From an uncultured Eubacteriales bacterium (GTDB lineage: Bacteria; Bacillota; Clostridia; Oscillospirales; Acutalibacteraceae): a stretch of 64,000 nucleotides of DNA. Each line of letters starts with the position of its first letter. The first letter of the stretch is position 1. Below the pieces are notes generated by a model, which was given only the letters and a program-made list of their open reading frames with translations, was not told where the DNA came from and did not search any database. This document shows positions 35,506-52,094 of this stretch, piece after piece. The translations under genes and the position numbers were made by a program. The stretch is from assembly GCA_900314795.1 (NCBI GenBank), contig OMWP01000010.1, positions 1 to 64,000 on the forward strand, given 5' to 3'.

Positions 35506-35534
35506 CGGTAATCACATACCTTTCGTCATAATTA

Positions 35535-35668
35535 GCCTCCCTTTCCTAAGGGAGGTGCCGCAAAGCGGCGGAGGATTGCACTAAATCAAAACCAACAGTA
35601 ACTATGTGAGATACTTTGACAACCCTCAGTCACCTTACGGTGACAGCTCCCTTAGAAAAGGGAGCCTA
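35535..35668. repeat. Family C palindromes
   Basis: Two copies in opposite orientation: GGCTCCC-type at the left (CCTCCCTTTCCTAAGGGAGG) and CCCTCAGTCACCTTACGGTG...GGGAGCC at the right, between the fusion gene and the LeuA-like gene. Confidence 0.75.
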
Positions 35669-35672
35669 TTTA

Positions 35673-37043
35673 TTAATCCTCTTCGTAGACGATCTTGTTG
35701 ACGGCGTTGATATACGCGCGGATGGACGCGCCGATGATATCGGTGGAAAGACCGGTACCGGAATAGATGCGTCCCGCAACACGCAGACGAACCAGCGCAT
35801 TACCCATGGCTTCTTTCTCCTGCGTGACGGTCTGGATAGAGAAATCGTCCAGCTCAAAGCGTCTGCCGATGATCTGCTCGATCGCGTGGAACGCCGCGTC
35901 GATGGGGCCGTCGCCGATGGCGATCCCCTGTACGGTCCTGCCCTCGCGGTTCAACGCAATCTGGGCGGAGGAGCTGATCCGGTTGCCGCTGTTGATGACA
36001 TAATTCTCGAGCGTGTAGGTCTCGGGCACCTGCAAAGCGGCTGACGCGACGATCGCGTCAAGCTCTTTGATACCGACGCTCTTCTTGCGCGCGATACGGC
36101 GGAACTCCTCATAGACCTTCTTGACGTCCTCATCGGAGAGGTCATAGCCGATCTTCTCGATATTCTCGCGGACGGTATCGACGGTATCGTTGAGAGACAG
36201 ACGAATGCCGTCATCGGTGATCTCGCGGGTCACGACGGTACGCGTCTTACCGCTGATGATCCACTCGATCTGGTCGATGGTGCGGAGCAGCTCGGTGGTG
36301 CGGATATCGGCAGAAATGCCGTAGTTCTCACGAATATCCTTGATCAGCGAGCCGAACTCACGCAGGGGCGTAGCCTCGCCGCCGATAGAGGTCTTGACGC
36401 AGGCAGCGCCGTTCTTGACCGCTAAGATTGCCGCGGCAGTGGCGACGCCGTTTTTATTGTTGCATTTTACGCCGACAGGCACATCTACATCCTCGGTGAC
36501 GCGAACAACAAACGCCGCAAAATCATCGGGCAGCAGGATCGCCGCGTCATCACACAAAGTGACCTTGGTCGCGCCGGCATCGACTGCGGACTTGACTGCT
36601 TCTTTGAGGAACGCTTCTTCGGCGCGGGTCGCGTCAACAGCGGTGAACTCAACGTCATCGCAGACGGATTTTGCCTTTTCAACCATCTTCTTCACATAAG
36701 CGCACATCTTGGGCTGTTTGATGTGCAGGGTGTATTCCATGATAGACGCGGTCATGGGCAGCTCAACACGAATACGCGGACGTGCCGCAGTAGAGAGCGC
36801 GTCAGCCGCACGGTCGATCGCGTCGGGTGATGACGCTGCCGCAACAGACAAAACGCTGCCCTTGACAAAGGAAGCCGCTGTGCGCACCAGCAGGCTCTCG
36901 GCTTTGGCGGTGCCGACCTCGGGAAGCTCTACGGCATCCACACCCAGTCGCTCCAGCTTGCGCGCGATCTCGAGCTTTTGCTTGAATGATAAGGTCGATT
37001 TTTCATCGGATAAGGTTGTGTCTGCAATCTTGATGTGATTCAT
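35673..37043 (-). CDS. LeuA/homocitrate synthase-like protein with altered catalytic site
   Basis: A 456-residue relative of 2-isopropylmalate synthase. It has an N-terminal HMGL-like TIM barrel, then a C-terminal LeuA regulatory (leucine-binding) domain from about residue 335 (ALQVPETYTLENYVINSGN; ALVRLRVAGRIYSGTGLSTD). The barrel is degenerate. DTTLRDGEQ reads DTTLSDEKS, so the catalytic Arg is gone. HxHND reads KCNNKN (VGVKCNNKNGVATA), so both metal-binding histidines are gone. GERAGN reads GGEATP. Normal Claisen condensation is therefore unlikely. A Leu-type T-box leader controls it. I infer a leucine-responsive pseudoenzyme, a partner subunit, or an enzyme with changed chemistry. Confidence 0.75.
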   Translation of the reverse strand: MNHIKIADTTLSDEKSTLSFKQKLEIARKLERLGVDAVELPEVGTAKAESLLVRTAASFVKGSVLSVAAASSPDAIDRAADALSTAARPRIRVELPMTASIMEYTLHIKQPKMCAYVKKMVEKAKSVCDDVEFTAVDATRAEEAFLKEAVKSAVDAGATKVTLCDDAAILLPDDFAAFVVRVTEDVDVPVGVKCNNKNGVATAAAILAVKNGAACVKTSIGGEATPLREFGSLIKDIRENYGISADIRTTELLRTIDQIEWIISGKTRTVVTREITDDGIRLSLNDTVDTVRENIEKIGYDLSDEDVKKVYEEFRRIARKKSVGIKELDAIVASAALQVPETYTLENYVINSGNRISSSAQIALNREGRTVQGIAIGDGPIDAAFHAIEQIIGRRFELDDFSIQTVTQEKEAMGNALVRLRVAGRIYSGTGLSTDIIGASIRAYINAVNKIVYEED

Positions 37044-37105
37044 AACAATTCCTCGTTTCGTATGTTAATAGGGTATATCCTGATAGATTACGATATCATT
37101 AGCGG

Positions 37106-37226
37106 TAAGAGTCCTCGCAGTAGCTCTCAGCCAATCATCGTTCGCAGGCTTGAACGCCCACTCCGATTCTTGGGAGAGCCTTGCGTGGGAGTTGTTAGCC
37201 AAATCGTAGATTTGGACAACTCCTCA
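37106..37226. repeat. Family D hairpin element
   Basis: A segment containing AGCCAATCATCG...CAGGCTTGAA...TGGGAGTTGTTAGCCAAATC and hairpin CCAAATCGTAGATTTGG, ending ACAACTCCTCAAA. A related copy is at 46126-46216, and a shorter one at about 10630-10672. Confidence 0.65.
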
Positions 37227-37560
37227 AAAAAAGTCCCCGAGGTCACTGACCTCAGGGACGAAGTTACTTCGCGGTACCACCCTGTTTACCGTAATACAAC
37301 GGTCACTCTAAGGCTCTGACAAGCCCTCTGCCATGATAACGGGACAATCCGTAGTCGGTTAGTAAATCTATCGGTTGAGATTGCCACAGGCTGACACGCG
37401 TGGCAAGCCTTCGCAATGACAATCAATAGTAGTTCACCGACTCTGCTCCGAAATGAGACTCGCTCCTGCTGTCCTGTTATCTTTCACCGACCGATAACTC
37501 TCTGAAAAGACGTTCTGTAAAAGCGATAATTTCATCAACGCATTTATGTGGTTATTCAAC
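37226..37560 (-). promoter_or_regulatory. T-box leader, Leu specifier (CTC), controlling the LeuA-like gene
   Basis: Minus strand: AGAGAG and GGTCGGTG elements of Stem I; upper helix TCGCT:AGCGA; specifier region GT-CTC-A-TTTCGGAGC with the codon at 37457-37455; antiterminator CAGGGTGGTACCGCGAAG; terminator GTCCCTGAGGTC / GACCTCGGGGAC with a T run (37226-37260). A family A repeat is inserted inside the hairpin AGTCGGT / ACCGACT. The Leu reading rests on alignment with the other leaders here. Confidence 0.87.
37373..37423. repeat. Family A repeat inside the Leu T-box
   Basis: CGGTTGAGATTGCCACAGGC...CGCAATGACAAT with the core GACACGCGTG. Located in an apical hairpin between Stem I and the antiterminator. 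Confidence 0.8.
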
Positions 37561-37567
37561 TTTAAGT

Positions 37568-37596
37568 AATATAGCACAATGTCAAAGAATTGTCAA
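37568..37596 (-). promoter_or_regulatory. Promoter of the Leu T-box transcript
   Basis: Minus strand: -35 TTGACA (37591-37596), 17-base spacer, -10 TATATT (37568-37573). Confidence 0.8.
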
Positions 37597-37909
37597 GCGC
37601 TTTAGTGCGTGAAAATATCGTTTTGTTTTATATCACAATCGGGATGTTTTCGGTCGCAAAAAATATGGTGTTTTTGACAGATTTACTATTCAGAGATCAT
37701 CCATCTTACCGTAGGGACGAGCATTGCTCGTCCGAGAATGACGGGCGTCACCTTTATCGAAAATGGATAGATAGGATAATAGCGTTTTCTGCCATGCGGA
37801 CGGTCAATGACCATCCCTACTAAAACACGTATTTGCTTCTCGTTTCGATAACGAATATTGGATATGTTTCGGCGGGAGCAAGCCCCCGCCCTACTGTATT
37901 CCTTCACAC
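37597..37909. other. Non-coding stretch with family B palindromes
   Basis: Between the Leu T-box promoter and the ilvE terminator. Family B copies at about 37711-37735 (GTAGGGACGAGCATTGCTCG) and 37871-37895 (GGCGGGAGCAAGCCCCCGCC). No gene seen. Confidence 0.6.
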
Positions 37910-37936
37910 AAAAACGGCAGGGTCTCCCCTGCCGTT
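37910..37936 (-). terminator. Terminator after ilvE
   Basis: Minus-strand stem CGGCAGGG / CCCTGCCG, GAGA loop, then TTTTTGTG. Confidence 0.85.
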
Positions 37937-38000
37937 GTCGGTTACTATTTCGTTAAGATTGGACGCAAGCGTCTTTTCTCACAACAATAATCAAACGCAA

Positions 38001-39065
38001 TCAGATCTCGACTGTCCAGCCGAACTTGTCCTCTACCTCACCCCACTGGATGCCGGTGATGGAATCATAGAGGTGCTGAGAGAGCTTGCCGATCTCGTTG
38101 TTGTTGATAATGTACTTGTGATCCTTGTAGCACAGCTCACCGATCGGAGAGATAACAGCCGCGGTACCGCAGCCCCATGCTTCTTCCAGAGTGCCGTCGG
38201 TCATCGCCTGAGCCAGCTCTTCAACAGAGAGCAGACGCTCAGAGACCTCGAGACCCTCGCTCTTGAGGAACTCGATGCAGGATTTTCTGGTGATACCGGG
38301 CAGGATGGAACCGGTCAGCTTGGGTGTGACGATCTCACCATTGATCTTGAACATGACGTTCATCGCGCCGACTTCCTCGATATACTTGCGCTCAACGCCG
38401 TCGAGCCACAGCACCTGAGAATAGCCCTGCTGCTCAGCGCGCTCGCCTGCACGGTTGGAAGCCGCGTAGTTACCGCCGCACTTCGCGTAGCCTGTACCGC
38501 CGCGTACCGCACGGACGTCCTGATCCTCGATCATGATCTTGACGGGGTTCAGACCTTCCTTGTAGTAGGAGCCGACAGGAGAAGCGATGATGATGAACTC
38601 CGCGTTATGGACAGCGTGAACGCCGAGGCTCTCATCGTTACCGAACATGAACGGACGCAGATACAGAGAAGTGCCCTTATCGGACGGCGTCCAATCCTGC
38701 TCTAAGCGGACGAATTCGACCAATGCCTGCATGAAGTCATCCTCGGGCATCTGAGGCAGGCAAAGACGCTCAGCGGAATTGTTCATACGACGGATGTTCT
38801 CGATGGGTCTGAACAGCTGAACCTTGCCGTCGGCGCGGCGATACGCCTTTAAGCCCTCAAAGATCTCGGAGCCGTAGTGCAGAACGGTGGAAGCGGGATG
38901 GATGGAGAGGTTCTCAAACGGCACAATACGGGGATTGTGCCAGCCCTCTTCGCTGTTCCAGCTCCAGCGGAACATGTGGTCGGTAAAAATCTTACCGAAA
39001 CCGAGTGCGGAAGAATCGGTAGGCTTCGCCTTCGGATTCGGGTTTAATGTAACTTTGATATCCAT
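38001..39065 (-). CDS. ilvE: Branched-chain amino acid aminotransferase
   Basis: PLP enzyme of fold type IV that interconverts 2-oxoisovalerate, 2-oxoisocaproate and 2-oxo-3-methylvalerate with Val, Leu and Ile. The 354-residue length is that of the long (BCAT-type) branch. Recognisable blocks are HYGSEIFEGLKAYR, LYLRPFMFGND, GGTGYAKCGGNYAAS (catalytic lysine), KYIEEVGAMN and the late GCGTAAVISPIG. GGAGG precedes the ATG at 39065. It lies 256 bases below the 2-oxoacid oxidoreductase genes in the same direction, as the last step of the proposed branched-chain acid salvage route. Confidence 0.95.
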   Translation of the reverse strand: MDIKVTLNPNPKAKPTDSSALGFGKIFTDHMFRWSWNSEEGWHNPRIVPFENLSIHPASTVLHYGSEIFEGLKAYRRADGKVQLFRPIENIRRMNNSAERLCLPQMPEDDFMQALVEFVRLEQDWTPSDKGTSLYLRPFMFGNDESLGVHAVHNAEFIIIASPVGSYYKEGLNPVKIMIEDQDVRAVRGGTGYAKCGGNYAASNRAGERAEQQGYSQVLWLDGVERKYIEEVGAMNVMFKINGEIVTPKLTGSILPGITRKSCIEFLKSEGLEVSERLLSVEELAQAMTDGTLEEAWGCGTAAVISPIGELCYKDHKYIINNNEIGKLSQHLYDSITGIQWGEVEDKFGWTVEI

Positions 39066-39094
39066 GATTATTCCTCCTTATCATATCATGAGCA

Positions 39095-39320
39095 GGGTGC
39101 TTCCAAGCCTTCCCCTTGGGGGGAAGGTGGGCTTTTCGACTCCTCAAGAGTCGAAAAGGTCGAATGAGGGGCTGACTTTTCCACTGAATGTCCGTCTTCA
39201 GTGAGGCTGCTCTCACTATGTCTTTAAGAACTCCACTCTTTGAATCATTGATCTATCGGATGAGTGATCCCCTCATCCGTCACCCTATGGGTGACACCTT
39301 CCCCCCAAGGGGAAGGCTTT
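39095..39320. repeat. Inverted pair of family C-like repeats between the oxidoreductase genes and ilvE
   Basis: Left copy GCCTTCCCCTTGGGGGGAAG (39100-39119) with an adjacent hairpin TTTTCGACTC / GAGTCGAAAA. The right copy is its reverse complement (CCTTCCCCCCAAGGGGAAGG, near 39297-39316) with a hairpin GTCACCC / GGGTGAC. Both continue into a GATGAGGGG-type tail. The pair could form a very large hairpin. Confidence 0.75.
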
Positions 39321-39321
39321 T

Positions 39322-39858
39322 TTATTCAAACTCCGCGCCCATTTGAATCGCCTTGAAGTTGACGTCCTTCATGTTGGCACGCTTTGCGGAAATGACCTTG
39401 TCGAGAGCAGCACGGATGCCGTCTTCGGTATAGTCGCCGGTCTCCTTGAGGAGCTTACCGACGATGATCATGTTGGCGAGGTTGCCGAGCTTCTCATCGG
39501 AAGCCATGCGGGTCGCGGGAATGTAAAATACTTTGACATCGTCACGCTCGACCTTGCGCTCGATCAGTGTGGAATCCGCGAAGATCATACCGCCGGGAAC
39601 AACCTTATCCTCAAATCTGTCGAGAGAGGGCAGGTTCATCGCGACGAGGATGTCGGGGTTCGAAACGATCGGAGAGCCGACAGGTGTATCGGATACGATG
39701 ACGGAGCAGGACGCTGTACCGCCGCGCATCTCGGGACCGTAGGACGGAAGCCAACTTACCTGCTTATCCTCGATCAGACCCTTGTAGGCGATGAATTTAC
39801 CGGCGAAGAGGATACCCTGACCGCCGAAACCGGAGAATAACATATTTTTAGCACTCAT
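39322..39858 (-). CDS. 2-oxoacid:ferredoxin oxidoreductase, gamma subunit
   Basis: Gamma subunit (178 residues) of a four-subunit 2-oxoacid:acceptor oxidoreductase. It has the family start KNMLFSGFGGQGILFAGKF, the GPEMRGGTASC block and SNPDILVAMN. It shares one base with the beta-subunit stop region, so it is co-transcribed with beta, alpha and delta. In such complexes this subunit helps CoA binding. Whether the complex is KOR (2-oxoglutarate) or VOR (2-oxoisovalerate) cannot be read from the sequence. The ilvE neighbour and the acyl-CoA synthetases favour branched-chain substrates. Confidence 0.9.
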   Translation of the reverse strand: MSAKNMLFSGFGGQGILFAGKFIAYKGLIEDKQVSWLPSYGPEMRGGTASCSVIVSDTPVGSPIVSNPDILVAMNLPSLDRFEDKVVPGGMIFADSTLIERKVERDDVKVFYIPATRMASDEKLGNLANMIIVGKLLKETGDYTEDGIRAALDKVISAKRANMKDVNFKAIQMGAEFE

Positions 39859-40616
39859 TATTCTGCCTCCTTCTCTTCTGCGGAGCGATCCTTATAAACG
39901 CCCAGAGGATAGTAAGGCAGCATATCGCTCTCGATCCACTCCAGCGCCTGCTTGGGGGTCATGCCCCAGTTGGTCGGGCAGGAGGAAACGACCTCGACAA
40001 GAGAGAAGCCCTTGCCGTCGATCTGGTTCTGGAACGCCTTTTTGATCGCCTTCTTCGCGTTTCTGACGTTCTTGACGTTGTTGACGGTAACGCGCTCGAG
40101 GTACTCGGGGCCTACCAGCTCAGAGAGCATCTCGCAAACCTTGATCGGATAACCGCAAGCCTTGGGGTCACGGCCGTAGGGAGAGGTCTGGGTGACCTGA
40201 CCGACCAGAGAGGTCGGCGCCATCTGACCGCCTGTCATGCCGTAGATCGCGTTGTTGATAAAGATAACAGTGATATTCTCGTTACGAGCCGCCGCGTGAA
40301 CGGTCTCAGCCATACCGATGGAAGCGAGGTCGCCGTCACCCTGATAGGTGAAGACGATGTTGTTCTCGGGATCGGCACGCTTGACGCCGGTTGCGACAGC
40401 CGGAGCACGGCCGTGAGCCGCCTCGATCATATCACAATTGAAATAGTTATAAGCCATAACGGAGCATCCTACGGGGGCGATACCGATGGTCTTGCCCTCG
40501 ATGCCCAGCTCGTCGATGACCTCGGCTACCAGACGGTGTACGATACCGTGGGTACAGCCGGGGCAGTAATGCAGCGGCACATCAATGAGTGCATGCGGTT
40601 TCTCAAATACAGCCAT
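39858..40616 (-). CDS. 2-oxoacid:ferredoxin oxidoreductase, beta (TPP-binding) subunit
   Basis: Beta subunit of 252 residues. The start is the ATG at 40616, which overlaps the alpha-subunit TAA by one base (TAATG). A longer frame to 40712 would run inside alpha and begins with unrelated Arg-rich sequence. Thiamine pyrophosphate site: GDGDLASIG followed by NNAIYGMTGGQ, the GDG-(x)n-NN motif. The N-terminal LHYCPGCTHGIVHR carries the Cys pair typical of KorB/VorA. It provides the carbonyl chemistry of oxidative decarboxylation or reductive carboxylation. Confidence 0.92.
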   Translation of the reverse strand: MAVFEKPHALIDVPLHYCPGCTHGIVHRLVAEVIDELGIEGKTIGIAPVGCSVMAYNYFNCDMIEAAHGRAPAVATGVKRADPENNIVFTYQGDGDLASIGMAETVHAAARNENITVIFINNAIYGMTGGQMAPTSLVGQVTQTSPYGRDPKACGYPIKVCEMLSELVGPEYLERVTVNNVKNVRNAKKAIKKAFQNQIDGKGFSLVEVVSSCPTNWGMTPKQALEWIESDMLPYYPLGVYKDRSAEEKEAE

Positions 40617-41680
40617 TACTTGATACCTCCGTTTACTTCTTTGATCGCATTGAGCACCTGCTCGGGATCGGGGATCATACCGCCGGCGCGGTTGCACAGG
40701 GTCACGGGGCACTTACTCTCGGTGGCGAGCTGTACGTCCTCGATCATCTGACCCATGTTCAGCTCGACCGAGATGAATGCCTTTGCGTGCTCGGCAGCCT
40801 TCTTGAAGGGAGCCTTCGGGAACGGCCACAGGGTGATCGGACGGATCAAACCGACCTTGATGCCGAGCTTGCGCGCTTCATCAACCGCGTTCTTACTTAC
40901 ACGAGCCGCGATACCGAACGCCGCGATCACGATGTCGGCGTCATCGACCTTGTATTCCTCATACATGGTCTCGTTCTCTTCGATGACCTTATAGCGATCA
41001 TAACGCTTGAAATTGAGCTCCTCGAGTTCCTCGGGAACCAGAGAGAGGGAGTTGACGATATTGTGCTCACGCTCCATCTTGGTGCCGGTGGTTGCCCACG
41101 GCTTTTCGGGAGCGGGCTTGACCTCGAGGTCATCGATGGAAACGGGCTCCATCATCTGACCCATGGTACCGTCGGCGAGGATCATGGCGGTCATGCGGTA
41201 GGTATCCGCCAGCTCAAAGCCCTTGACGGTCAGCTCCGCCATCTCCTGTACGGACGCGGGAGCGAGGACGATCATGTGATAGTCGCCGTGACCGCCGCCG
41301 CGGGTGGACTGGAAGTAGTCGGACTGGGAGGGCTGGATGCCGCCGAGACCCGGACCGCCGCGCTGTACATTAACGATCAGCGAGGGCAGGTCGGAGCCTG
41401 CTAAGTAGGATAAACCTTCACCCTTCAGCGATACGCCGGGAGAGGAAGAAGAAGTCATCACGCGTTTGCCCGCGGACGCCACGCCGTATACCATGTTGAT
41501 CGCGGCGATCTCGGACTCTGCCTGCAGGAAGGTTCCGCCGACCTTGGGCATAACCTTCGCCATATAGGCAGCTATCTCGGTCTGAGGGGTGATCGGGTAA
41601 CCGAAGTAATGCAGACAGCCCGCCTTGATAGCGGCAGCGGCGATCGCTTCGTTACCTTTCATCAAAATCTTATCTGCCAT
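40616..41680 (-). CDS. 2-oxoacid:ferredoxin oxidoreductase, alpha subunit
   Basis: Alpha subunit of 354 residues. MKGNEAIAAAAIKAGCLHYF with GYPITPQTEIAAYMA near the N terminus is the PFOR domain I signature. Later come ATSSSSPGVSLKGEGLSYLAG-like residues (SSSPGVSLKGEGLSYLAG) and the domain II block KVGLIRPITLWPFP. The alpha subunit sets substrate specificity in this family. The pocket residues cannot be assigned by eye. Order delta-alpha-beta-gamma is standard for VOR/KOR operons. Confidence 0.92.
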   Translation of the reverse strand: MADKILMKGNEAIAAAAIKAGCLHYFGYPITPQTEIAAYMAKVMPKVGGTFLQAESEIAAINMVYGVASAGKRVMTSSSSPGVSLKGEGLSYLAGSDLPSLIVNVQRGGPGLGGIQPSQSDYFQSTRGGGHGDYHMIVLAPASVQEMAELTVKGFELADTYRMTAMILADGTMGQMMEPVSIDDLEVKPAPEKPWATTGTKMEREHNIVNSLSLVPEELEELNFKRYDRYKVIEENETMYEEYKVDDADIVIAAFGIAARVSKNAVDEARKLGIKVGLIRPITLWPFPKAPFKKAAEHAKAFISVELNMGQMIEDVQLATESKCPVTLCNRAGGMIPDPEQVLNAIKEVNGGIK

Positions 41681-41689
41681 CGTTTTTCA

Positions 41690-41896
41690 TCACCTTTCTA
41701 CCTTGATAATACAGTCGGGGCACATCATGTAGCAGGAAGCACAACCGATACAGGCGTCCATATCGGTGCACTCTACGGGATGATGACCCTTCTTGTTGAT
41801 TTTGTCTGTGGCGATCTGCAAGATCCCTTTGGGACAAGCATCCACACACAGCGCACAACCCTTACAGTTGTCGGTCTTGAATGTTAGTTTTGCCAT
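41690..41896 (-). CDS. 2-oxoacid:ferredoxin oxidoreductase, delta (2x[4Fe-4S]) subunit
   Basis: Ferredoxin-like subunit of 68 residues with two complete cluster motifs, CKGCALCVDACPKG and CIGCASCYMMCPDC. It passes electrons between ferredoxin and the catalytic subunits. The second of two in-frame ATGs (41896) is favoured because AAGGG lies nine bases upstream; ATG 41902 is only three bases from it. First gene of the oxidoreductase operon, nine bases before alpha. Confidence 0.92.
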   Translation of the reverse strand: MAKLTFKTDNCKGCALCVDACPKGILQIATDKINKKGHHPVECTDMDACIGCASCYMMCPDCIIKVER

Positions 41897-41902
41897 ATAC
41901 AT

Positions 41903-42188
41903 TTTCCCTTCTTTATAATAAATAATTATTATGTATGGTTATTTCGCTTGAATAACAAGAACCTAATAGATAACATCAACAGCAACAGGAAAGATGATGA
42001 TTCTGTTGTAGGGTACGGCATTTATGACGTACCGCACGGCAGAAGGTTTCAGATCGATCATGTTTATTCGACAGATACATCTATCGGCTGTTTCGGTACG
42101 TCGACAAGCGCCGTACCCTACAGAGCGTTACCAAATACTGAAATCTTGAGGTCAAACATAAACTGCTTTCTCTCAGTCGCAATCGGCA
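41903..42188. repeat. Intergenic region with a GTAGGGTACGGC palindrome
   Basis: Contains TGTAGGGTACGGC at 42007-42019 and GCCGTACCCTACA near 42109-42122 as inverted ends of a roughly 115-base segment, with an inner TGACGTACCG / CGGTACGTCGA pair. A related end (GCCGTACCCTAC) is at 24590-24602. No T-box or riboswitch is recognisable before the oxidoreductase operon. Confidence 0.6.
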
Positions 42189-42851
42189 TCATATCGGCTT
42201 CTTTTGCAGCTTCAAGCGGAATAATGGGCTGATTTTATCCTTGAGATCATCATAAAGATGATCCTCGACGGTGGTGAGCACCAGCGGCAGGTTCGCGAGG
42301 CTTGCGACTTCCTCCGCGTACTTCACAGAGGAAAGAACATCATCCGCGGATGTCTCAACCGCTAAGTTCGAATTGTTGATAATGCCCGTGAACGGGATGC
42401 CGCACGCCGCTTCGATCTCGCGCATGACCTCGATGGTGGACTCCGCGTCGGGCGTCAGGGGGCGGAACTTGTTGACGACCATCAGCATTTCATAGTCATT
42501 CTCAGTGCGGATCGCGTCGCGCAGTCTGCCGAGCGCGTAGGCTCCTCTATCGTCGCCGCCGATATCCATGATCACGCTCAGCGTTTTGTCATCGGTGATC
42601 GAATACAGGTCGGCGGGCATGGATGGCAGATCCACGTTGGAGGACGCGAAATCGGAGCAGATCAGGCGAATGCCGTGCTCCTTGAATTCATCCTCACTGT
42701 CCTTACTGCGGAAATAGGGATTGACGATATCGAGGTCGGCGATGGCGACATGATCCCGCTTTGTGGCGAGGTCAAGCGCCATATTGACAGCGATATTGGT
42801 CTTTCCCGAGCCGTAGTGACCGCATAGTATAGTTAATCGTTTGTAGGTCAT
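42189..42851 (-). CDS. MinD/ParA-like P-loop ATPase
   Basis: Cytoplasmic ATP-binding protein of 220 residues. The deviant Walker A motif CGHYGSGKTNIAVN lies at about residues 10-23, followed by AIADLDIVNPYFRS (switch I-like) and MDIGGDDRGA (Walker B-like). The rest resembles the SIMIBI class but not MinD itself, as no membrane-targeting helix is seen. It is transcribed between the first HTH-cupin-ligase gene (140 bases upstream) and the oxidoreductase operon. It might be a maturation or regulatory ATPase for one of them; that is inference only. Confidence 0.75.
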   Translation of the reverse strand: MTYKRLTILCGHYGSGKTNIAVNMALDLATKRDHVAIADLDIVNPYFRSKDSEDEFKEHGIRLICSDFASSNVDLPSMPADLYSITDDKTLSVIMDIGGDDRGAYALGRLRDAIRTENDYEMLMVVNKFRPLTPDAESTIEVMREIEAACGIPFTGIINNSNLAVETSADDVLSSVKYAEEVASLANLPLVLTTVEDHLYDDLKDKISPLFRLKLQKKPI

Positions 42852-42865
42852 TAAAACCTCCGGAT

Positions 42866-42991
42866 TTTGAAGTTGAAAGTTGACAGTTGAAAGTGGAAAA
42901 ATGTGGGAAACACTCGCGTTTTGATTGATATGGAATTCATTTGAGGGCGAAGCCCTCCCTTAACTTTCCACTTTCCACTTTCCATTTTCCA
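42866..42991. repeat. GTTGAAAGTTGACAG / CTTTCCACTTTCC repeat
   Basis: Low-complexity inverted pair: GAAGTTGAAAGTTGACAGTT at the left and CTTTCCACTTTCCACTTTCC at the right. A longer version is at 45318-45505. Together they bracket the first ligase gene. Confidence 0.7.
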
Positions 42992-45277
42992 CTATAAAAG
43001 ATTTCTCTGAATCTTACCGCTGGTGGTCTTGGGCAGGCTATCCTTAAAGACGACGATACGCGGATATTTATACGGAGCGGTATGGGTCTTGACGTAGTCC
43101 TGGATCTCCTTCTTCAGCTCCTCGGTGCCATCGGTGCCCTTGACGAGCACGATGGACGCCTTGACGACCTGACCTCTTACAGGATCGGGCGCGGGAGATA
43201 CACCGCATTCGAGGACATACGGCAGTTCCATGATGACCGATTCGATCTCGAACGGTCCGATACGGTAGCCCGAACTCTTGATAACGTCATCCGCGCGACC
43301 GACATACCAGAAGAAGCCGTCCTCATCACGCCATGCGAGGTCGCCGGTATGATAATAGCCGTTGCGCCAGTTCTTGCGGGTGGAGTCGACGTCGTTGTAA
43401 TAGTACATTGCCAGACCGCAGGGCATTTTCTCAGCAATATTGATACAGATCTCGCCGGGCTCACCGTCGGGCACGTCGTTGCCGTCCTTGTCGAGCAGGT
43501 GGATGTCATAGATCGGAGAGGGCTTGCCCATCGAGCCGATCTTATGCGGCGCGCCGATCATATTGCAGATGATAACGGCGGTCTCGGTCTGACCGAAGCC
43601 CTCCATGATCTGCAAGCCGGTGAGCTTCTCAAACTGGTTGTACACCTCGGGATTGAGCGCCTCACCCGCGGTGGTCATACGCTTGACGGAGGAGAAATCG
43701 TATTTGCTGATATCCTCCTTGATCATCATGCGCAGCATGGTAGGCGGCGCGCAGAAGGTGGTGATATGGTATTTGGCGAACATCGGCAGGATGTCGTCGG
43801 CATGGAAGCGGTCAAAGTCATAGACAAACATCGGCGCTTCACACAGCCACTGTCCGTAGAGCTTGCCCCATGCCGCCTTTGCCCAACCGGTGTCGGAGAT
43901 GGTGAAGTGCAGACCGTCGGGGTCGACATTGTGCCAGAAATGCGCGGTCATAAAGTGACCCAGCGCGAGCTTGTAGCTATGCGCGGCGATCTTCGGATAA
44001 CCGGAGGTACCCGAGGTGAAGTACATCAGCATGATGTCGTCGCCGCAGGGAGTGCTCTCCTTGCGCTCAAAATGAGAGGAGAACAGCTTATATTCTTCAT
44101 CAAAGTTGCGCCAGCCCTCGCGCACACCGTTGACCATGATGCGCTTTAATTGCGGATAATTCTCCATCGCTTTCTCGACCTCCGCGGCGGAATAGCCGTC
44201 GCCGGTACAGACGATAGCGGAAACGCCAGCCGCCTTGAAGCGATATTCGAGGTCGTGCGCCTGGAGCTGGTTGGTCGCGGGGATCGCGATCGCACCGAGC
44301 TTATGCAGACCGATGATCGCGAACCAGAACTGATAATGACGTTTGAGGATCAGCATAACGCGGTCGCCCTTGCGGATGCCTAAGCTCTTGAAATAGTTCG
44401 CGCACTGGCAGGACGCGTGGCGGATATCGGTAAAGGTGAAGCGGTGCTCCGTTTTGTCGTTCGCGACATGGATCATCGCGAGTTTATCGGGATCTTTATA
44501 GGAAATGGCATCGATGACATCGAAGCCGAAGTTGAACTTGTCCTCATTCTTGAAGGTGACCTTGGTGGGCGTGCCGTTCTCGTTGACCTCGTAGTCGACG
44601 AACTTTTTCCAGACACGCTCCTTGGTATCGGTATTCTCCACCTTCGCGGCAGCGATCGCCTTGGTAGTGGTCAGCTCGGGGATCGGCTCACCCTTGGGGT
44701 TGAGGACGATCGCGTAGAAGATACAATCCTGCTCGCCGACTGCCATCTCACCGTGAGGGGTGTTGGAATCAAAGTAGATGGTATCGCCGGGGCCGAGAAT
44801 CTCCTTATGATCGCCGACCTGCACCATCAGCTGTCCCTCGATGACGATATCGATCTCCTGACCGTCATGAGTGGTCAGCTCCATCGGCTTTGTCTGCGCC
44901 TCGGGATTATACTTGCTCTTGACATACAAGGGCTCCGCGATACGGTTCTGGAACGCGTAAGCGAGGTTATAATAGGTCATGCCGTGCGCCTGACTTACCT
45001 TTTGACCGAGTCCGCGACGGGTCACGGTATAGGATTTCAGGTTCGGGGAAATACCCTCGATGATCTCGGTGACGTTGACGTTCAGCGCCTGAGAGACGCG
45101 GTAGATGAACGCGAAGTTCAGATCCTGCTTGCCCGATTCACACGCGATGTACTCATCCTCGGTGACGTCGGTAAACGCCGCCATCTCGGCGATGGTCTTG
45201 CCCTCGAGTTCGCGCAGTTCGCGAATTCGGGTCGCCATTTCTTTTATTTTTTGATCTATGGTCGTTAGATTCTCCAT
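42992..45277 (-). CDS. Fusion: XRE HTH + cupin + acyl-CoA synthetase (copy 1, Val T-box)
   Basis: A 761-residue protein with three parts. Residues 12-72 form an XRE-type helix-turn-helix (IRELRELEGKTIAEMA, YIACESGKQDLNF). Residues 120-205 form a cupin (DGQEIDIVIEGQLMVQVGDH, GPGDTIYFDSNTPHGEM). Residues 245-761 are an acetyl/medium-chain-type acyl-CoA synthetase (P-loop YFTSGTSGYPKIAAHS, GFGQTETAV, YHTGDLAWRDEDGFFWYVGR, catalytic lysine near the end in TTSGKIQRN). It makes an acyl-AMP, then an acyl-CoA. A T-box with a GTA (Val) specifier precedes it. I infer isobutyrate or a related branched acid as substrate, feeding the oxidoreductase and IlvE downstream. The fused regulator suggests a DNA-binding enzyme. 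Confidence 0.88.
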   Translation of the reverse strand: MENLTTIDQKIKEMATRIRELRELEGKTIAEMAAFTDVTEDEYIACESGKQDLNFAFIYRVSQALNVNVTEIIEGISPNLKSYTVTRRGLGQKVSQAHGMTYYNLAYAFQNRIAEPLYVKSKYNPEAQTKPMELTTHDGQEIDIVIEGQLMVQVGDHKEILGPGDTIYFDSNTPHGEMAVGEQDCIFYAIVLNPKGEPIPELTTTKAIAAAKVENTDTKERVWKKFVDYEVNENGTPTKVTFKNEDKFNFGFDVIDAISYKDPDKLAMIHVANDKTEHRFTFTDIRHASCQCANYFKSLGIRKGDRVMLILKRHYQFWFAIIGLHKLGAIAIPATNQLQAHDLEYRFKAAGVSAIVCTGDGYSAAEVEKAMENYPQLKRIMVNGVREGWRNFDEEYKLFSSHFERKESTPCGDDIMLMYFTSGTSGYPKIAAHSYKLALGHFMTAHFWHNVDPDGLHFTISDTGWAKAAWGKLYGQWLCEAPMFVYDFDRFHADDILPMFAKYHITTFCAPPTMLRMMIKEDISKYDFSSVKRMTTAGEALNPEVYNQFEKLTGLQIMEGFGQTETAVIICNMIGAPHKIGSMGKPSPIYDIHLLDKDGNDVPDGEPGEICINIAEKMPCGLAMYYYNDVDSTRKNWRNGYYHTGDLAWRDEDGFFWYVGRADDVIKSSGYRIGPFEIESVIMELPYVLECGVSPAPDPVRGQVVKASIVLVKGTDGTEELKKEIQDYVKTHTAPYKYPRIVVFKDSLPKTTSGKIQRNLL

Positions 45278-45317
45278 AAGATACCTTCCTTCCGTTCGTT
45301 CTCATAACACTCATACA

Positions 45318-45505
45318 AATGGATAGTTGATAGTGGAAAATGGGAAATTGCGGGAAACGCTTCGCGTTTTGGAAGTTGAAAGTTGACAGTTGAAAATGGA
45401 AAGTTTCGGGTCGCTTCGCTCCGAATTATGATAGTATTTTACACTTTCCACTTTCCACTTTCCATTTTCCACTTTCCACTTTCCACTATCCATTTTCCAC
45501 TTTAA
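45318..45505. repeat. Long version of the GTTGAAAG / CTTTCCAC repeat
   Basis: ATAGTGGAAAATGGGAAATT ... GAAAGTTGACAGTTGAAAAT at the left, and four or more tandem TTTCCACTTTCCAC units at the right, between the ligase start and the T-box terminator. Confidence 0.7.
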
Positions 45506-45508
45506 ATT

Positions 45509-45878
45509 AAAAAACGCTCATCCCAAAGTCATCACTTTGAGACGAGCGCATAACACCCGCGGTACCACTCAAATTGCAGGCTGATATCTCAGCACTGCCA
45601 CTCTCAGGGTCTGTATTTCTCAATCGTCATTGCGAGGAGACGGCAAAACCGCCGACGCGGCAATCTCAACCGATCAAAAGGGAATGACAATTGATATGCT
45701 AACCCCTATGCATTTACGCAGCAATCACGGAGGAGGTCTAATCATATCATAGGATACTTTCTTCTCCCCGGCTCAGAAGCTACAAACACGGAATCCATCA
45801 TAGGAGCTTGCACCAACCGCTCTTTCTCTGAATGATGAGAGAACCGCGCCCTCTTCGTCATAGCCTTTAGCTCGTCTA
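45509..45878 (-). promoter_or_regulatory. T-box leader, Val specifier (GTA), controlling ligase fusion copy 1
   Basis: Minus strand: Stem I with GGCTATGACGAAGA, an AGAGAAAGAGCGGTTGGTG apical element, upper helix GCGCGG:CCGTGT, then TT-GTA-G-CTTCTGAGCC with the codon at 45783-45781. Stem IIA/B (GTGATTGCTGCGTAAATGC), antiterminator TGAGTGGTACCGCGG and terminator CGCTCGTC...GATGAGCG with a T run follow. The four-base unit after the codon pairs with GAAG, as in well-known leaders. A family A repeat follows Stem IIA/B. Confidence 0.85.
45621..45674. repeat. Family A repeat inside the Val T-box
   Basis: CAATCGTCATTGCGAGGAGA ... GACGCGGCAATCTCAACCGAT. Opposite orientation to the copies in the Thr and Leu leaders. 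Confidence 0.8.
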
Positions 45879-45907
45879 ATCATATCACATGATTCTGTTT
45901 TTGTCAA
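45879..45907 (-). promoter_or_regulatory. Promoter of the Val T-box transcript
   Basis: Minus strand: -35 TTGACA (45902-45907), 17-base spacer, -10 TATGAT (45879-45884). Confidence 0.8.
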
Positions 45908-45934
45908 TAGATAAATGTATGGAACGTCGGATAG

Positions 45935-46235
45935 AATTGTAGGGGTCGTCGGACACGCGTGTCCGACGACCCGCATGGCAGAAGCGATTGTTGCCTATCT
46001 ACCGTTTTCGATATCAGAAACGCCCGTCATGCTCGGGATGTCGCAAGCGTCATCCCCTACGGTAAATACTTCATCTGCTGCGCATTTAACTGACATCGCT
46101 CGGAAATGTTTCGGGAGGAGCACAGTGGCGCTTAGCCAATCACAGGCTTTGCCTGTTCTTGGAGCGCTGTTGCATGGGAGTTGTACACCAAATCAAAGAT
46201 TTGGACAACTCCTCAAAGCCCCTCCCCTACATTAC
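45935..46235. repeat. Non-coding stretch with nested palindromic repeats
   Basis: GTCGTCGGACACGCGTGTCC GACGAC palindrome at about 45948-45973. Then a family B palindrome, GGGAGGAGCA...GCCCCTCCCCTAC (46111-46230), is split by a family D element (46126-46216) carrying CCAAATCAAAGATTTGG. Confidence 0.7.
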
Positions 46236-46242
46236 ATTATTA

Positions 46243-48507
46243 TTACAGCTTATTGCGCTGGATCTTGCCGCTGATCGTCTTGGGCAGGCTGTCCTTGAAG
46301 ACGACGATACGCGGATATTTATACGGAGCGGTATGGGTCTTGACGTAGTCCTGGATCTCCTTCTTGAGCTCGTCGGTACCCTCGGTTCCCTTGACGAGCA
46401 CGATGGACGCCTTGACGACCTGACCTCTTACAGGATCGGGCGCGGGAGATACGCCGCACTCGAGGACATAGGGCAGCTCCATGATGACAGACTCGATCTC
46501 GAACGGTCCGATACGGTAGCCGGAGCTCTTGATGACGTCATCGGTTCTGCCGACATACCAGAAATAGCCGTCCTCATCACGCCAAGCGGTATCACCGGTG
46601 TGATACATGCCGTCGTGCCACGCCTCTTTGGTGGCTTCTTCATTATTATAATAGCCCTTGAACAGACCGCAGGGAACGCGTTTGTCGGTGCGGATGATGA
46701 TCTCACCGGGCTCGCCGTCGGGAACAGGATTGCCGTCGGGATCAACGATATCGATGTCATAGCCGGGGATGGGCTTACCCATCGAGCCGAGCTTGGGGGT
46801 TGTACCGAAGAGGTTGCCGATGGTGAGAGTGGTCTCGGTCTGACCGAAGCCCTCCATGATCCTCAAGCCCGTCGCCTTGCGGAACTGGCGCCAGACCTCG
46901 GGGTTGAGCGCCTCGCCTGCCGTTGTCATATGAGTGATGCTCGACAGATCGTACTTGCTCAGATCCTCCTTAATCATCATGCGCAGCATGGTAGGCGGCG
47001 CGCAGAAGGTGGTGATGTTATATTTTTTGAACATCGGCAGGATGTCGTCCGCGTGGAAGCGGTCGAAGTCGTAGGTGAAGACCGCACCCTCACTGAGCCA
47101 CTGACCGTAGAACTTGCCCCATAACGCCTTACCCCAGCCGGTGTCGGAGATGGTGAAGTGCAAGCCGTCGGGGTCAACGCCGTGCCAGTACTTGGCGGTG
47201 ACATAGTGACCGAGCGCATATTTGTAGCTATGGTTGGCGATCTTCGGATAGCCTGTCGTACCCGAGGTAAAGAACATGACCATGGTGTCGTCGCCGCAGG
47301 GGGTCTCGACCGTGCGATAATAATGGGTGGAGTACATCTCAAACTCCGCGTCAAAGTCATGCCAGCCCTCTCTGGTGCCGCCAACCATGATCTTGGTTTG
47401 TAAGGTCGGAGAGGTCTTCTGCGCTTCATCGACGGAATCGGCAACCAGACCGTCGGCAGTCGCGACGATCGCGGAAACGCCCGCAGATTGGAAACGATAC
47501 TCAAAGTCATGCGCCAACAGCTGGTTGGTCGCGGGGATCGCGATCGCGCCCAGCTTATGCAGCGCGAGCATGCTGAACCAGAACTGGTAATGGCGCTTTA
47601 ACACCAGCATGACACGGTCGCCCTTCTTGATGCCGAGGGACTTGAAGTAGTTCGCCGCCTGATTGGAACGGCGCTTCATATCGTTGAAGGTAAAGCGGCG
47701 CTCGACCATGTTCTTATCCACATGGAGCATCGCGAGCTTATCGGGTGTGTTATTCGCGATCGCGTCAACGCAGTCGAACGCAAAGTTGAACTTATCCTCA
47801 TTGCGGAAGCTGATCGCCTTGAGGCAGCCGTTCTCATCCTCGAGGGTGCGAACGAACTGACCCGTGATAGCGGATTTTTGCTTGACATGCGCCTTCATGA
47901 CCTCGTCATCGCGCTCCTCCGCCTCTTTCTCACCGGGCAGGATGATGGCGATGAACTTGACGTCCTCGCCGCCGATCGCGATCATGCCGTGAGGCGTGGA
48001 GGAATTATAGTAGATGCTGTCGCCCGCAGCGAGCTCCTCAAAGTTGTTGCCGATCTGGATCTTCATCTTGCCCGACAGGACAAAGTCGAATTCCTGTCCC
48101 GCGTGCTTGGTGAGGTGGATCGGCTTATTCTGCAGGCTCTCGTTATAGTCGTACTTACAAAAATACGGCTCGGCGATCTTGTTCTTGAACATCGGCGCGA
48201 CGTTGACGATGGAGATACCCTCCTCCTCGGCAGTCTGTCTGCCGCCGCCGCGACGGGTCACGGTGTAGCTCTTGAGTCGTGCGGACTCACCCTCCAAAAT
48301 ATCGGTGATGCCCAGTCCGAACGCCAACGCGCACTTGTGGATAAAGGTGAAGGGAAAATCCTCGGTACCGTTCTCATACGCCTTGTACTCAGAGACGGAT
48401 ACCTCGGTTTTCTCCGCCATTTCCTCAACGGAGAAGCCGCTGATCTCGCGCATTTCTCGAATACGCTTAGCGACCTCGACGAGTTTTTCGTTATCTACAA
48501 CTGACAT
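46243..48507 (-). CDS. Fusion: XRE HTH + cupin + acyl-CoA synthetase (copy 2, Ile T-box)
   Basis: A 754-residue paralogue of the 42992-45277 gene with the same three parts. The HTH is at about residues 8-68 (IREMREISGFSVEEMAEKTE, YENGTEDFPF), the cupin at about 118-200 (AGQEFDFVLSGKMKIQIGNN, GDSIYYNSSTPHGMIAIG), and the synthetase follows (FFTSGTTGYPKIANHS, GFGQTETTL, YHTGDTAWRDEDGYFWYVGR, final TISGKIQRNKL). The last 100 residues are almost identical to copy 1, while the HTH, cupin and acyl-pocket regions have diverged. The start at 48507 follows GGGAGG by eight bases; the longer frame to 48561 lacks a site. The leader specifier is ATC (Ile), so 2-methylbutyrate is the inferred substrate. 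Confidence 0.88.
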   Translation of the reverse strand: MSVVDNEKLVEVAKRIREMREISGFSVEEMAEKTEVSVSEYKAYENGTEDFPFTFIHKCALAFGLGITDILEGESARLKSYTVTRRGGGRQTAEEEGISIVNVAPMFKNKIAEPYFCKYDYNESLQNKPIHLTKHAGQEFDFVLSGKMKIQIGNNFEELAAGDSIYYNSSTPHGMIAIGGEDVKFIAIILPGEKEAEERDDEVMKAHVKQKSAITGQFVRTLEDENGCLKAISFRNEDKFNFAFDCVDAIANNTPDKLAMLHVDKNMVERRFTFNDMKRRSNQAANYFKSLGIKKGDRVMLVLKRHYQFWFSMLALHKLGAIAIPATNQLLAHDFEYRFQSAGVSAIVATADGLVADSVDEAQKTSPTLQTKIMVGGTREGWHDFDAEFEMYSTHYYRTVETPCGDDTMVMFFTSGTTGYPKIANHSYKYALGHYVTAKYWHGVDPDGLHFTISDTGWGKALWGKFYGQWLSEGAVFTYDFDRFHADDILPMFKKYNITTFCAPPTMLRMMIKEDLSKYDLSSITHMTTAGEALNPEVWRQFRKATGLRIMEGFGQTETTLTIGNLFGTTPKLGSMGKPIPGYDIDIVDPDGNPVPDGEPGEIIIRTDKRVPCGLFKGYYNNEEATKEAWHDGMYHTGDTAWRDEDGYFWYVGRTDDVIKSSGYRIGPFEIESVIMELPYVLECGVSPAPDPVRGQVVKASIVLVKGTEGTDELKKEIQDYVKTHTAPYKYPRIVVFKDSLPKTISGKIQRNKL

Positions 48508-48684
48508 GGTGTTTCCTCCCAATCGATGTTTATATGAAAAAGTATGATGACTATGATACAAGTGGTCAGTGGTTAGTGATTAGTGGTCAGAATCTCAGGT
48601 CGCTTCACTCCGAAAAAAAATAATCGGGTACGGGCAGAGCCCGTCAACAACTGTTCACTGTTCACTGAAAACTGTTCACTAAAC

Positions 48685-49026
48685 AAAAAACGCCCGTCTC
48701 AACATTGAGACGAGCGTGAAAAATCACATCCGCGGTACCACTCAATTTGCAGTATTGCTACTGCCACTCTCAGGATCGATATAAATTGTCATTGCGAGGC
48801 ATTTGACACGCGTGTCGAGCCGTGGCAATCTCAACCGATATGAATCCCTATGCCTTTACGCAGCAATCACGGGGAGTATCTACTCAGCATACGAATGTAT
48901 CACTTTTCGGGCTCCCGGCTCAGAAGCGATGGGTACTCAGGCTCATTCTATCGGCTCACACCAGCCGCCGACTCTCTGAAAAAACAATGCCTTGACCGTC
49001 TTCGTCACAGCCTTTATTAATTGTCT
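48685..49026 (-). promoter_or_regulatory. T-box leader, Ile specifier (ATC), controlling ligase fusion copy 2
   Basis: Minus strand: GGCTGTGACGAAGA, AGAGAGTCGGCGGCTGGTG apical element, then GTACCC-ATC-G-CTTCTGAGCC with the codon at 48930-48928. Stem IIA/B (GTGATTGCTGCGTAAAGGC), antiterminator TGAGTGGTACCGCGG and terminator CGCTCGTCTCAA / TTGAGACGGGCG with a T run follow. Closely similar to the Val leader except at the codon and Stem I middle. Confidence 0.87.
48784..48840. repeat. Family A repeat inside the Ile T-box
   Basis: AATTGTCATTGCGAGGCATT ... CCGTGGCAATCTCAACCGATA with the core GACACGCGTGTC. Same site and orientation as in the Val leader. Confidence 0.8.
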
Positions 49027-49032
49027 GTTAAA

Positions 49033-49061
49033 AATGTATCACAATTATGCAAAAAAGTCAA
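49033..49061 (-). promoter_or_regulatory. Promoter of the Ile T-box transcript
   Basis: Minus strand: -35 TTGACT (49056-49061), 17-base spacer, -10 TACATT (49033-49038). Confidence 0.75.
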
Positions 49062-49091
49062 TATCGGCAATATGCCGATAAAGTCAAAATG

Positions 49092-49979
49092 TCACTCTGA
49101 TATTTTAGTTACTTTTTCTCTGCTGAGAATATAATTCAGCACCGCCATCGAAATGATGATGACATAGCCGACGACACTCCAGATATCGGGCACCTGCTGG
49201 AACACGATCAGGCTCATCAGCGACGCGAAAATGATCTGGCTGAAATCATAGACGGAAATCTCCTTGGCGGGCGCGTAGGTATACGCCGCGGTGATGGAGA
49301 ACTGCGCGAGCGCCGCGCTGACACCGGCACTCAGCAGATACACCCACTGCAACGCCGTCATCGGGACATAGCCCGCGATCATGATCGGTGTGACGATCAG
49401 GGTGGACGCCGTCGAGAAGAAGAACACGATAAACGGGTTGCTCTCCCCCATCAATCCAAGCTTGCGCACACACCCGTAAGCCGCTCCCGCGCATACGCCG
49501 CCTAAGAATCCCACCAATGCGGGGATGAAAGCAGCGTTGGCAAAGCTGGGCTTGATGACGAAGATCGTACCGAATAACGCGCCGCCGAGGATCAGCCATT
49601 GATAGAGCTTCGGGCGCTCATGAATGAAGATAAATGAGAAGATCACCGCGAAGAAGGGCGACATCTTATTGAGGATGGACGCATCGGACAGCACCAGCGT
49701 CTCGAGCGCATAGTAATTGCAGACCACGCCTGTCAAGCCAAATAACGTCCGCAATACCAGGAACTTCCAGCTGCCCTTGACAGTCGGTCGCAGGGGTGCT
49801 TTATTCTTCAAAAGAACAATAAAAGCGATCACCGACGCCATCGCGTTGCGGAAAAACACCTTTTGGAACACAGGCAGCTCATCGCCGCTGAGCTTGACAA
49901 ACATATTCATACAGGCGAAGAAAAACGCCGATAAGATCAGAAGCAGGATTCCTTTGGTTCTTTTACTCACTTTATCCAT
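49092..49979 (-). CDS. DMT-superfamily (EamA) transporter
   Basis: Inner-membrane transporter of the drug/metabolite superfamily, 295 residues, with ten hydrophobic segments in two EamA halves. Typical landmarks are FFRNAMASVIAF in helix 2, ILNKMSPFFAVIFSFIFIHE at the end of the first half and QIIFASLMSLIVFQQVPD in the second. The substrate cannot be deduced; many relatives export amino acids or metabolites. It sits above the Ile T-box promoter on the same strand but has its own separate transcript. Confidence 0.88.
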   Translation of the reverse strand: MDKVSKRTKGILLLILSAFFFACMNMFVKLSGDELPVFQKVFFRNAMASVIAFIVLLKNKAPLRPTVKGSWKFLVLRTLFGLTGVVCNYYALETLVLSDASILNKMSPFFAVIFSFIFIHERPKLYQWLILGGALFGTIFVIKPSFANAAFIPALVGFLGGVCAGAAYGCVRKLGLMGESNPFIVFFFSTASTLIVTPIMIAGYVPMTALQWVYLLSAGVSAALAQFSITAAYTYAPAKEISVYDFSQIIFASLMSLIVFQQVPDIWSVVGYVIIISMAVLNYILSREKVTKISE

Positions 49980-50149
49980 CTCGCATCATACAATAATAAC
50001 GGTTATAACGAGTTGATCTCGCAACCTTTTTCTATTGTAACACAAGTATGAATGATTTTCAAATCATGTTGATCTTTGATTGTCGGAATAAAACGCGGCA
50101 AACTGTCAAAGATAATGGCAGATGAAACAAATTCAGGAGTGTGAAGAAA

Positions 50150-51941: not shown

Positions 51942-52070
51942 AACAAAAACTCCGCACGGGTTACCGTACGGAGCGCTTAACTCATCTTTCGGTAAACCCG
52001 CAGGATTTAGCACCTTACTCACGCAGGTTGCCGGACTTCACAGGGCCTGTCCCTCAGTCGCTCTTGATAA
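51942..52070 (-). promoter_or_regulatory. SAM-I riboswitch (S-box) upstream of metK
   Basis: Minus strand: CTTATCAAGAGCGACTGAGG then GGACAGGCCCTGTGAAGTCC and GGCAACCTGCGTGAGTAAGG, with AAATCCTGCGGG, are the conserved P1-P4 elements. The terminator CTCCGTACGGTAACCCGTGC GGAG plus TTTTTGTTTT closes it. Product-controlled transcription termination of metK. Confidence 0.95.
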
Positions 52071-52094
52071 GTGATCAGTTATTCAGCTTTCAAG

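Follow-up and report, generated by a model that had tools for sequence, protein, structure and literature searches.

A candidate T-box-controlled salvage of branched short-chain acids into isoleucine, valine and leucine in an uncultured Acutalibacteraceae bacterium

T-box riboswitches usually act on aminoacyl-tRNA synthetase, amino acid biosynthesis and transporter genes. Rumen bacteria use branched short-chain acids as growth factors and can convert them into amino acids by reductive carboxylation, using the same acids, oxidoreductase class and transamination that we consider below; to our knowledge, neither the control of the use of these acids in rumen bacteria nor any amino-acid-specific RNA control of their activation has been described. 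According to excerpts of PMC7356843, isobutyrate and 2-methylbutyrate are precursors of valine and isoleucine in rumen cultures. We analysed a 64,000-nucleotide stretch (the window; contig OMWP01000010.1, assembly GCA_900314795.1) from an uncultured Eubacteriales bacterium of the family Acutalibacteraceae, in which three T-box leaders with isoleucine, valine and leucine specifier codons precede genes for acyl-CoA ligases (ACS1, ACS2 and, behind a LeuA-like gene that we call LeuAx, ACS3). The locus probably encodes a three-branch salvage pathway making isoleucine, valine and leucine from branched short-chain acids, each branch being switched by its own T-box; it would differ from the rumen reductive carboxylation in the amino-acid-specific RNA control of the activation step. 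Our open-access literature searches, which combined T-boxes with isobutyrate, ferredoxin oxidoreductases or acyl-CoA ligases, showed no description of such a system among the papers listed.

Reading along the minus strand from 49017 to 32980, one meets T-box(AUC)-ACS1; T-box(GUA)-ACS2-NTPase-VorD-VorB-VorA-VorC-IlvE; T-box(CUC)-LeuAx-ACS3. The leaders share with the T-box riboswitches of amino acid genes (RF00230) a Stem I with specifier, the T-box sequence, a terminator and a matching codon, and differ from them in preceding acyl-CoA ligases and a LeuA-like probable pseudoenzyme. With the Rfam covariance model, leader 1 (48703-49017; AUC, isoleucine) scored 77.4 bits (E = 1.4e-15), leader 2 (45535-45870; GUA, valine) 67.8 bits (E = 4.1e-13) and leader 3 (37251-37547; CUC, leucine) 111.4 bits (E = 2.5e-24), so that all three had E-values below 1e-12 and only leader 3 exceeded the gathering score of 93. 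All three contain the T-box UGGN sequence (GUGGUACCGCG), and a terminator carrying a T run comes after each of them (48690-48717, 45514-45549 and 37233-37259). These terminators, with 12, 16 and 12 pairs, have the most pairs among the 20 terminator-like sites found in 32500-50100 (14.6 in shuffles), and their folding lies 2.5 to 5.9 standard deviations below that of shuffled sequences; the antiterminator pairing is known here only from the Rfam alignment of the leaders. Promoter-like sites with 11 of 12 matches precede leader 2 (45907-45879) and leader 3 (37596-37568), in a region (32500-50100) where 26 promoter-like sites were found versus 15 in shuffles.

In a T-box, a constant spacing separates the specifier from the GAGC of the Stem I kink-turn that follows it, and the consensus of the RF00230 alignment agrees with this. 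By this single rule the specifiers are AUC for ACS1, GUA for ACS2 and CUC for LeuAx. Ten T-box matches were found in the window genome at E-values up to 1, namely these three, six others and a fragment at E = 0.76 that was set aside. The six others stand before cysE, alaS, pheS, trpE, thrS and a TrpB-like gene (NCBIfam names, all over cut-off), and their codons (UGC, GCU, UUC, UGG, ACC and UGG) each fit the gene; those for cysteine, phenylalanine and both tryptophans were read by script, that for alanine by a simpler rule, which gave several candidate codons for some leaders, and that for threonine by eye. Our first specifier script reported a spurious site on the plus strand of the window (TCC), overlooked the leaders of AlaS and ThrS and was wrong on two in one related locus (L051), which are GTA and CTC by eye; a wider script reads both of these and misreads one other (L057, below). 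A tRNA-Val(UAC) gene lies at 2462-2537 of the window, and the genome has a tRNA-Leu(GAG) gene. The thrS T-box (codon ACC) is itself in the window, at 12734-13020, as is a SAM (S-adenosylmethionine) riboswitch at 51979-52073, upstream of what by eye appears to be metK.

The match between codon and gene extends to relatives of the locus, which were taken from a 150-genome sample of the family and from the best 80 of 581 confirmed stretches in the genome collection, a set in which near relatives are over-represented. The codon count covers 162 sources, with 9 duplicates dropped and further duplicates between loci and named genomes possible; the type of each gene was set by its score against the window proteins, independently of the codon, and pairs in which the HTH (helix-turn-helix)-cupin head and the ligase are split were left out of the full-length counts and of the list of ACS1 genomes. 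Leaders of the 116 full-length ACS1 genes read AUC in 96 cases, 19 remained unread, and the script misread one as ACA, which by eye is ATC (AUC; L057). All 64 leaders read among 72 full-length ACS2 genes specify valine (56 GUA, 8 GUC, 8 unread), and all 35 read among 50 full-length LeuAx genes specify leucine (30 CUC, 5 CUG, 15 unread). A second search of the 42 unread leaders, with a Stem I profile built from the read ones under masking of the codon, matched 12, for which inspection by eye gave AUC (7), GUA (2) and CUC (3), all fitting the gene. The use of two valine and two leucine codons suggests that amino acid identity is what these leaders conserve. An earlier note on this DNA had proposed that each synthetase responds to the tRNA for the amino acid whose synthesis it supplies; at the level of the specifier codons, this held wherever one was readable, and the search for the same T-box/ligase pair that it advised recovered isoleucine codons at ACS1 and valine codons at ACS2. 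The whole set, with AUC, GUC and CUG leaders, also occurs in Erysipelotrichaceae bacterium NK3D112 (L151), the one record among the best 80 of 581 labelled neither metagenome-assembled genome nor uncultured, so tests in culture may be possible.

ACS1 (46243-48507) and ACS2 (42992-45277), the two acyl-CoA synthetase fusions of the earlier note, are both HTH-cupin-AMP-ligase fusions, each behind its T-box; the start of ACS1 is the ATG at 48507, the listed open reading frame (ORF) beginning at TTG 48561 in the checked frame. The best match of ACS1 in the PDB is 3ETC (623 bits, the next scoring 348), and the best NCBIfam family of both ligases is MbcS (NF047394). 3ETC is MacsMa of Methanosarcina acetivorans, for which excerpts of PMC10455477 give 2-methylbutyrate as preferred substrate. 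The pocket glycine and tryptophan of these closest relatives are kept here: Gly555 aligns to Trp414 of E. coli Acs, the replacement typical of MacsMa, and Trp441, invariant in 10 sequences, aligns to a tryptophan of 3ETC (probably Trp259, allowing for an offset of one), the alternate pocket residue. The alignment also shows that the ligases keep the equivalent of E. coli Lys609, the catalytic lysine of Acs. They differ from MacsMa and MbcS in the HTH-cupin fusion, in occurring as isoleucine and valine types, in lying behind T-boxes and in scoring below the MbcS cut-off. We consider it highly probable, from the codons and these relationships, that the ligases of the isoleucine and valine branches act on 2-methylbutyrate and isobutyrate, respectively, which would make ACS1 a 2-methylbutyryl-CoA synthetase and ACS2 an isobutyryl-CoA synthetase.

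Comparison of 97 isoleucine-codon with 64 valine-codon proteins revealed nine positions that separate the two types at a level of at least 85%. Eight of them are in the HTH-cupin head (positions 9 to 110) and only one, position 459, in the catalytic domain, with glycine in 96 of 97 isoleucine-codon proteins (Gly459 in ACS1) and alanine in all 64 valine-codon proteins (the equivalent Ala466 in ACS2). The 26 proteins lacking a codon call follow the same division, the 18 with glycine being the 18 of ACS1 class and the 8 with alanine the 8 of ACS2 class. In the alignment, position 459 corresponds to Val310 of the E. coli acetyl-CoA synthetase, taken here as an acyl-pocket residue, for which our searches found no supporting paper, and 3ETC has glycine there; the larger side chain for the smaller acid is the pattern that would be expected. 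A quick tree, with two codon changes and three of residue 459, implied a second independent isoleucine-to-valine switch at L083; since the log-likelihood was 49.8 higher when the valine type was held together, we claim one switch only. The split is thus best seen as a single event kept over many genomes, not as repeated convergence, the data needing no more than one. The DNA of ACS1 and ACS2 is 95% identical over one 50-codon stretch near the 3' ends and 89% in the preceding stretch versus 54-61% in the first 250 codons, which suggests gene conversion between them. Head and ligase are not fused in other genera, where a gene of its own encodes the HTH-cupin part directly before the ligase gene (L084, L085, L087, L099-L103 and others); an AUC T-box was read at three split pairs (L086, L099 and L102) and none at most others. 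By eye, the pair at L085 stands just behind the end of an apparent leucyl-tRNA synthetase gene, with a CTC T-box ~3.5 kb upstream.

The genes behind ACS2 would encode the remaining steps. The 2-oxoacid:ferredoxin oxidoreductase, announced in the earlier note as a four-subunit enzyme, qualifies by its VorB score and number of subunits as a 2-ketoisovalerate:ferredoxin oxidoreductase (Vor) and consists of VorD (41690-41902), a 70-amino-acid ferredoxin-like subunit recognised from its sequence, VorB (40616-41680), a 3-methyl-2-oxobutanoate dehydrogenase subunit over the family cut-off (NF005507, 546 bits, cut-off 399), VorA (39858-40616; the listed ORF extends to 40712, with a likely ATG at 40616), the thiamine pyrophosphate-binding subunit (PF02775), and VorC (39322-39858), the gamma subunit (PF01558); VorA and VorC match 2-oxoacid oxidoreductase families with scores below the cut-offs of those families. 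IlvE (38001-39065), also named there, is a branched-chain amino acid transaminase (ilvE_II, TIGR01123, 402 bits, cut-off 250). Between ACS2 and VorD lies a CbiA/ParA-type P-loop NTPase (42189-42851; PF01656), which was found in 28 of 28 loci showing VorB in one set of relatives. The gaps at 45340-45490, 42880-43000 and 48560-48680 hold short repetitive stretches (GTGGAAAGT-like and similar). A PHROGs search gave no match.

The leucine branch turned out to be larger than first described. LeuAx (35673-37043) falls just beyond the region covered by the earlier note (37226-49061), which had listed a LeuA-like gene behind a third T-box; gene and T-box are real, and the gene product is probably no synthase. 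LeuAx has the fold of 2-isopropylmalate synthase LeuA (PF00682) and its LeuA_dimer regulatory domain (PF08502, 106 bits), and differs from it in the absence of the metal histidines and GERAGN loop and in adjoining an acyl-CoA ligase. In the window protein, the RDGEQ motif is replaced by S-D-E-K-S (where the aspartate may be kept), the two metal histidines by lysine and asparagine, and the GERAGN loop is gone. Among 43 LeuAx proteins, TLRD and H-x-H-N/D occur in none; 3 have an aspartate two residues after T-L and, as aligned, 11 keep the arginine and 1 each His202 and His204. The regulatory motifs are well kept (G-x-G-P/A-x-D in 38 and S-T/S-D-I/V in 42 of the 43 proteins), and the mean majority is 0.74 in the regulatory versus 0.55 in the catalytic domain. 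We rejected LeuAx as a working synthase on the loss of the metal histidines and the GERAGN loop and the absence of any LeuC over cut-off in the genome, and read it as a probable pseudoenzyme. ACS3 (32980-35505), which the earlier note did not include, is a TIM-barrel-acyl-CoA ligase fusion (PF01261, PF00501, PF13193) that follows LeuAx in 39 of 50 loci by script, plus L107 and L153, where frames overlap; the nine loci in which it was not seen have fewer than 1500 bases left. In 38 ACS3 sequences the ligase motifs are kept, and the TIM-barrel head is weakly conserved (0.53 versus 0.81 for the ligase). Given the lost catalytic residues of LeuAx and the position of ACS3 next in line, the leucine T-box most likely serves this third ligase. 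Isovalerate is the substrate that we favour for ACS3, with fair confidence, from the T-box, the missing LeuC and the logic of the pathway alone. A Leu T-box before a real leuA is reported for Geobacter in excerpts of PMC2700814.

This gut-type bacterium apparently has none of the standard genes for the synthesis of valine, isoleucine and leucine. Its genome (2.53 Mb, 67 contigs) is 99.75% complete and gave no match to IlvB, IlvC or IlvD, none over cut-off to CimA or to IlvA (sought by TIGR01127 alone), and none over cut-off to LeuC, both LeuC matches lying in one 663-amino-acid frame of aconitase length; both LeuA matches are LeuAx. Across the 150 family genomes, each branch of the salvage is anticorrelated with its standard counterpart. 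Only 3 of 23 genomes with ACS2 have ilvC, versus 82 of 127 without ACS2 (both 3, ACS2 only 20, ilvC only 82, neither 45; Fisher p = 4.6e-6). In the ligase counts, one genome (G075) was entered for ACS2 and not for ACS1, its second hit (C39) being unfetched, and another with an unfetched partial hit (G065) for neither ligase. Likewise, cimA or ilvA occurs in 9 of 42 genomes with ACS1 versus 80 of 108 without it (both 9, ACS1 only 33, cimA/ilvA only 80, neither 28; p = 6.4e-9). LeuC, for which three or more domain matches served as a proxy in the other genomes, was found in 2 of 21 genomes with LeuAx versus 82 of 129 without it (both 2, LeuAx only 19, LeuC only 82, neither 47; p = 4.3e-6), the 21 being those seen in the fetched loci and a wider search suggesting more.

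From what was directly observed (leaders, codons, gene order, conservation, missing standard genes and the separating residue), we infer the ligase substrates, the direction of VorDBAC and the induction, as follows. When isoleucine, valine or leucine is short, its uncharged tRNA would pair with the matching leader (AUC, GUA or CUC), the terminator would be avoided and the ligase of that branch made. ACS1 would then activate 2-methylbutyrate, ACS2 isobutyrate and ACS3 isovalerate to their CoA esters, VorDBAC would carboxylate these with reduced ferredoxin to 2-oxo acids, and IlvE would aminate the latter to the amino acids. With the vor-ilvE genes behind ACS2, a valine shortage would also raise their expression. 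Amino-acid-specific control is the part of this scheme in which we have the greatest confidence and is very likely, induction itself being the presumed outcome. The codons, the missing standard genes, the kinship with 3ETC and the separating position in the catalytic domain agree with one another and support the overall interpretation of the earlier note.

Several observations weigh against this scheme. Leaders 1 and 2 score below the Rfam gathering threshold, both ligases fall far short of the MbcS cut-off of 850 (ACS1 445 bits, ACS2 420 bits), and no tRNA-Ile is among the 39 tRNA matches of the genome, a gene that the 67-contig assembly may miss. Thirty of the 238 leaders remain unread, 9 at contig ends and 21 having no Stem I match despite at least 800 bases upstream. 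By Rfam, three loci with the same ligase genes (L153, L162 and L176) have no T-box, so another control must act there, and a fourth (L190) has one only behind ACS1 and none before it; some relatives therefore run these genes without a T-box of their own. At L089, the Rfam T-box is at the start of ACS2. The three AUC-led split pairs lie in genomes that keep cimA (G007, G114 and G142), and at L086 the split head scores as ACS2 despite the AUC leader, the ligase scoring as ACS1. The standard genes also persist in some genomes with the fusions, cimA or ilvA in the 9 of 42 and ilvC in the 3 of 23 (G056, G133 and G148), and one isoleucine-codon protein (L059) has alanine at position 459; its genome (G022, 1.1 Mb) shows a single ligase match and none to ilvC, and the protein may serve both acids. 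Finally, neither the Fisher tests nor the codon counts take shared descent into account, and the isoleucine/valine split fits one event.

Alternatively, the main task of the ligases could be to provide branched CoA primers for the fatty acids of the membrane, the amino acids being imported. MbcS, the best NCBIfam family of both, has this role in Staphylococcus aureus, where, in excerpts of PMC10026030, it activates 2-methylbutyrate and isobutyrate for fatty acid synthesis and isovalerate poorly. The poor use of isovalerate by MbcS speaks against the primer role, as do the T-boxes with isoleucine, valine and leucine codons, the vor genes downstream in 78 of 115 ACS1 and 63 of 72 ACS2 loci (34 of the remaining 46 being cut by the contig) and the anticorrelation with the standard branches across the 150 genomes, and we consider this role improbable.

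Even less probable is a catabolic direction, in which IlvE and VorDBAC would break branched amino acids down to acids, with a gain of electrons on ferredoxin. Oxidoreductases of this class are able to work in the oxidative direction; however, a T-box switches its gene on during a shortage of the amino acid, the opposite of what catabolism would need, the ligases belong to the AMP-forming enzymes, which favour CoA-ester formation, and keep the catalytic lysine, and the standard synthesis genes were not found in the genome. We give equally little credit to a mixed scheme in which isoleucine and valine come from acids but leucine is made from 2-oxoisovalerate by the LeuA-like gene, ACS3 having another role. 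The LeuA fold, regulatory domain and leucine T-box, and the aspartate of the RDG motif that LeuAx may keep, would suit it; the lost metal histidines, with H-x-H-N/D in 0 of 43 proteins, and the lack of LeuC, with none over cut-off here and no sign of it by proxy in 19 of 21 LeuAx genomes, speak against it.

Under the three-branch salvage, a LeuAx devoid of metal histidines becomes a candidate leucine sensor. Its role as a leucine-binding regulator of the leucine branch is a weaker proposal, which we make tentatively; in an extended and equally tentative form, LeuAx would be a conserved pseudoenzyme sensing leucine for ACS3, and ACS1 and ACS2 would sense their own end products through their HTH-cupin heads. 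If this is true, every branch would be under double control, with the RNA responding to tRNA charging and the protein to the end product. For the use of branched short-chain acids by these bacteria, the set offers genes together with an RNA code from which the likely substrate of every ligase can be read. Position 459 provides a one-residue hypothesis for specificity, and the T-box codon a tool for predicting the acid that an acyl-CoA ligase activates.

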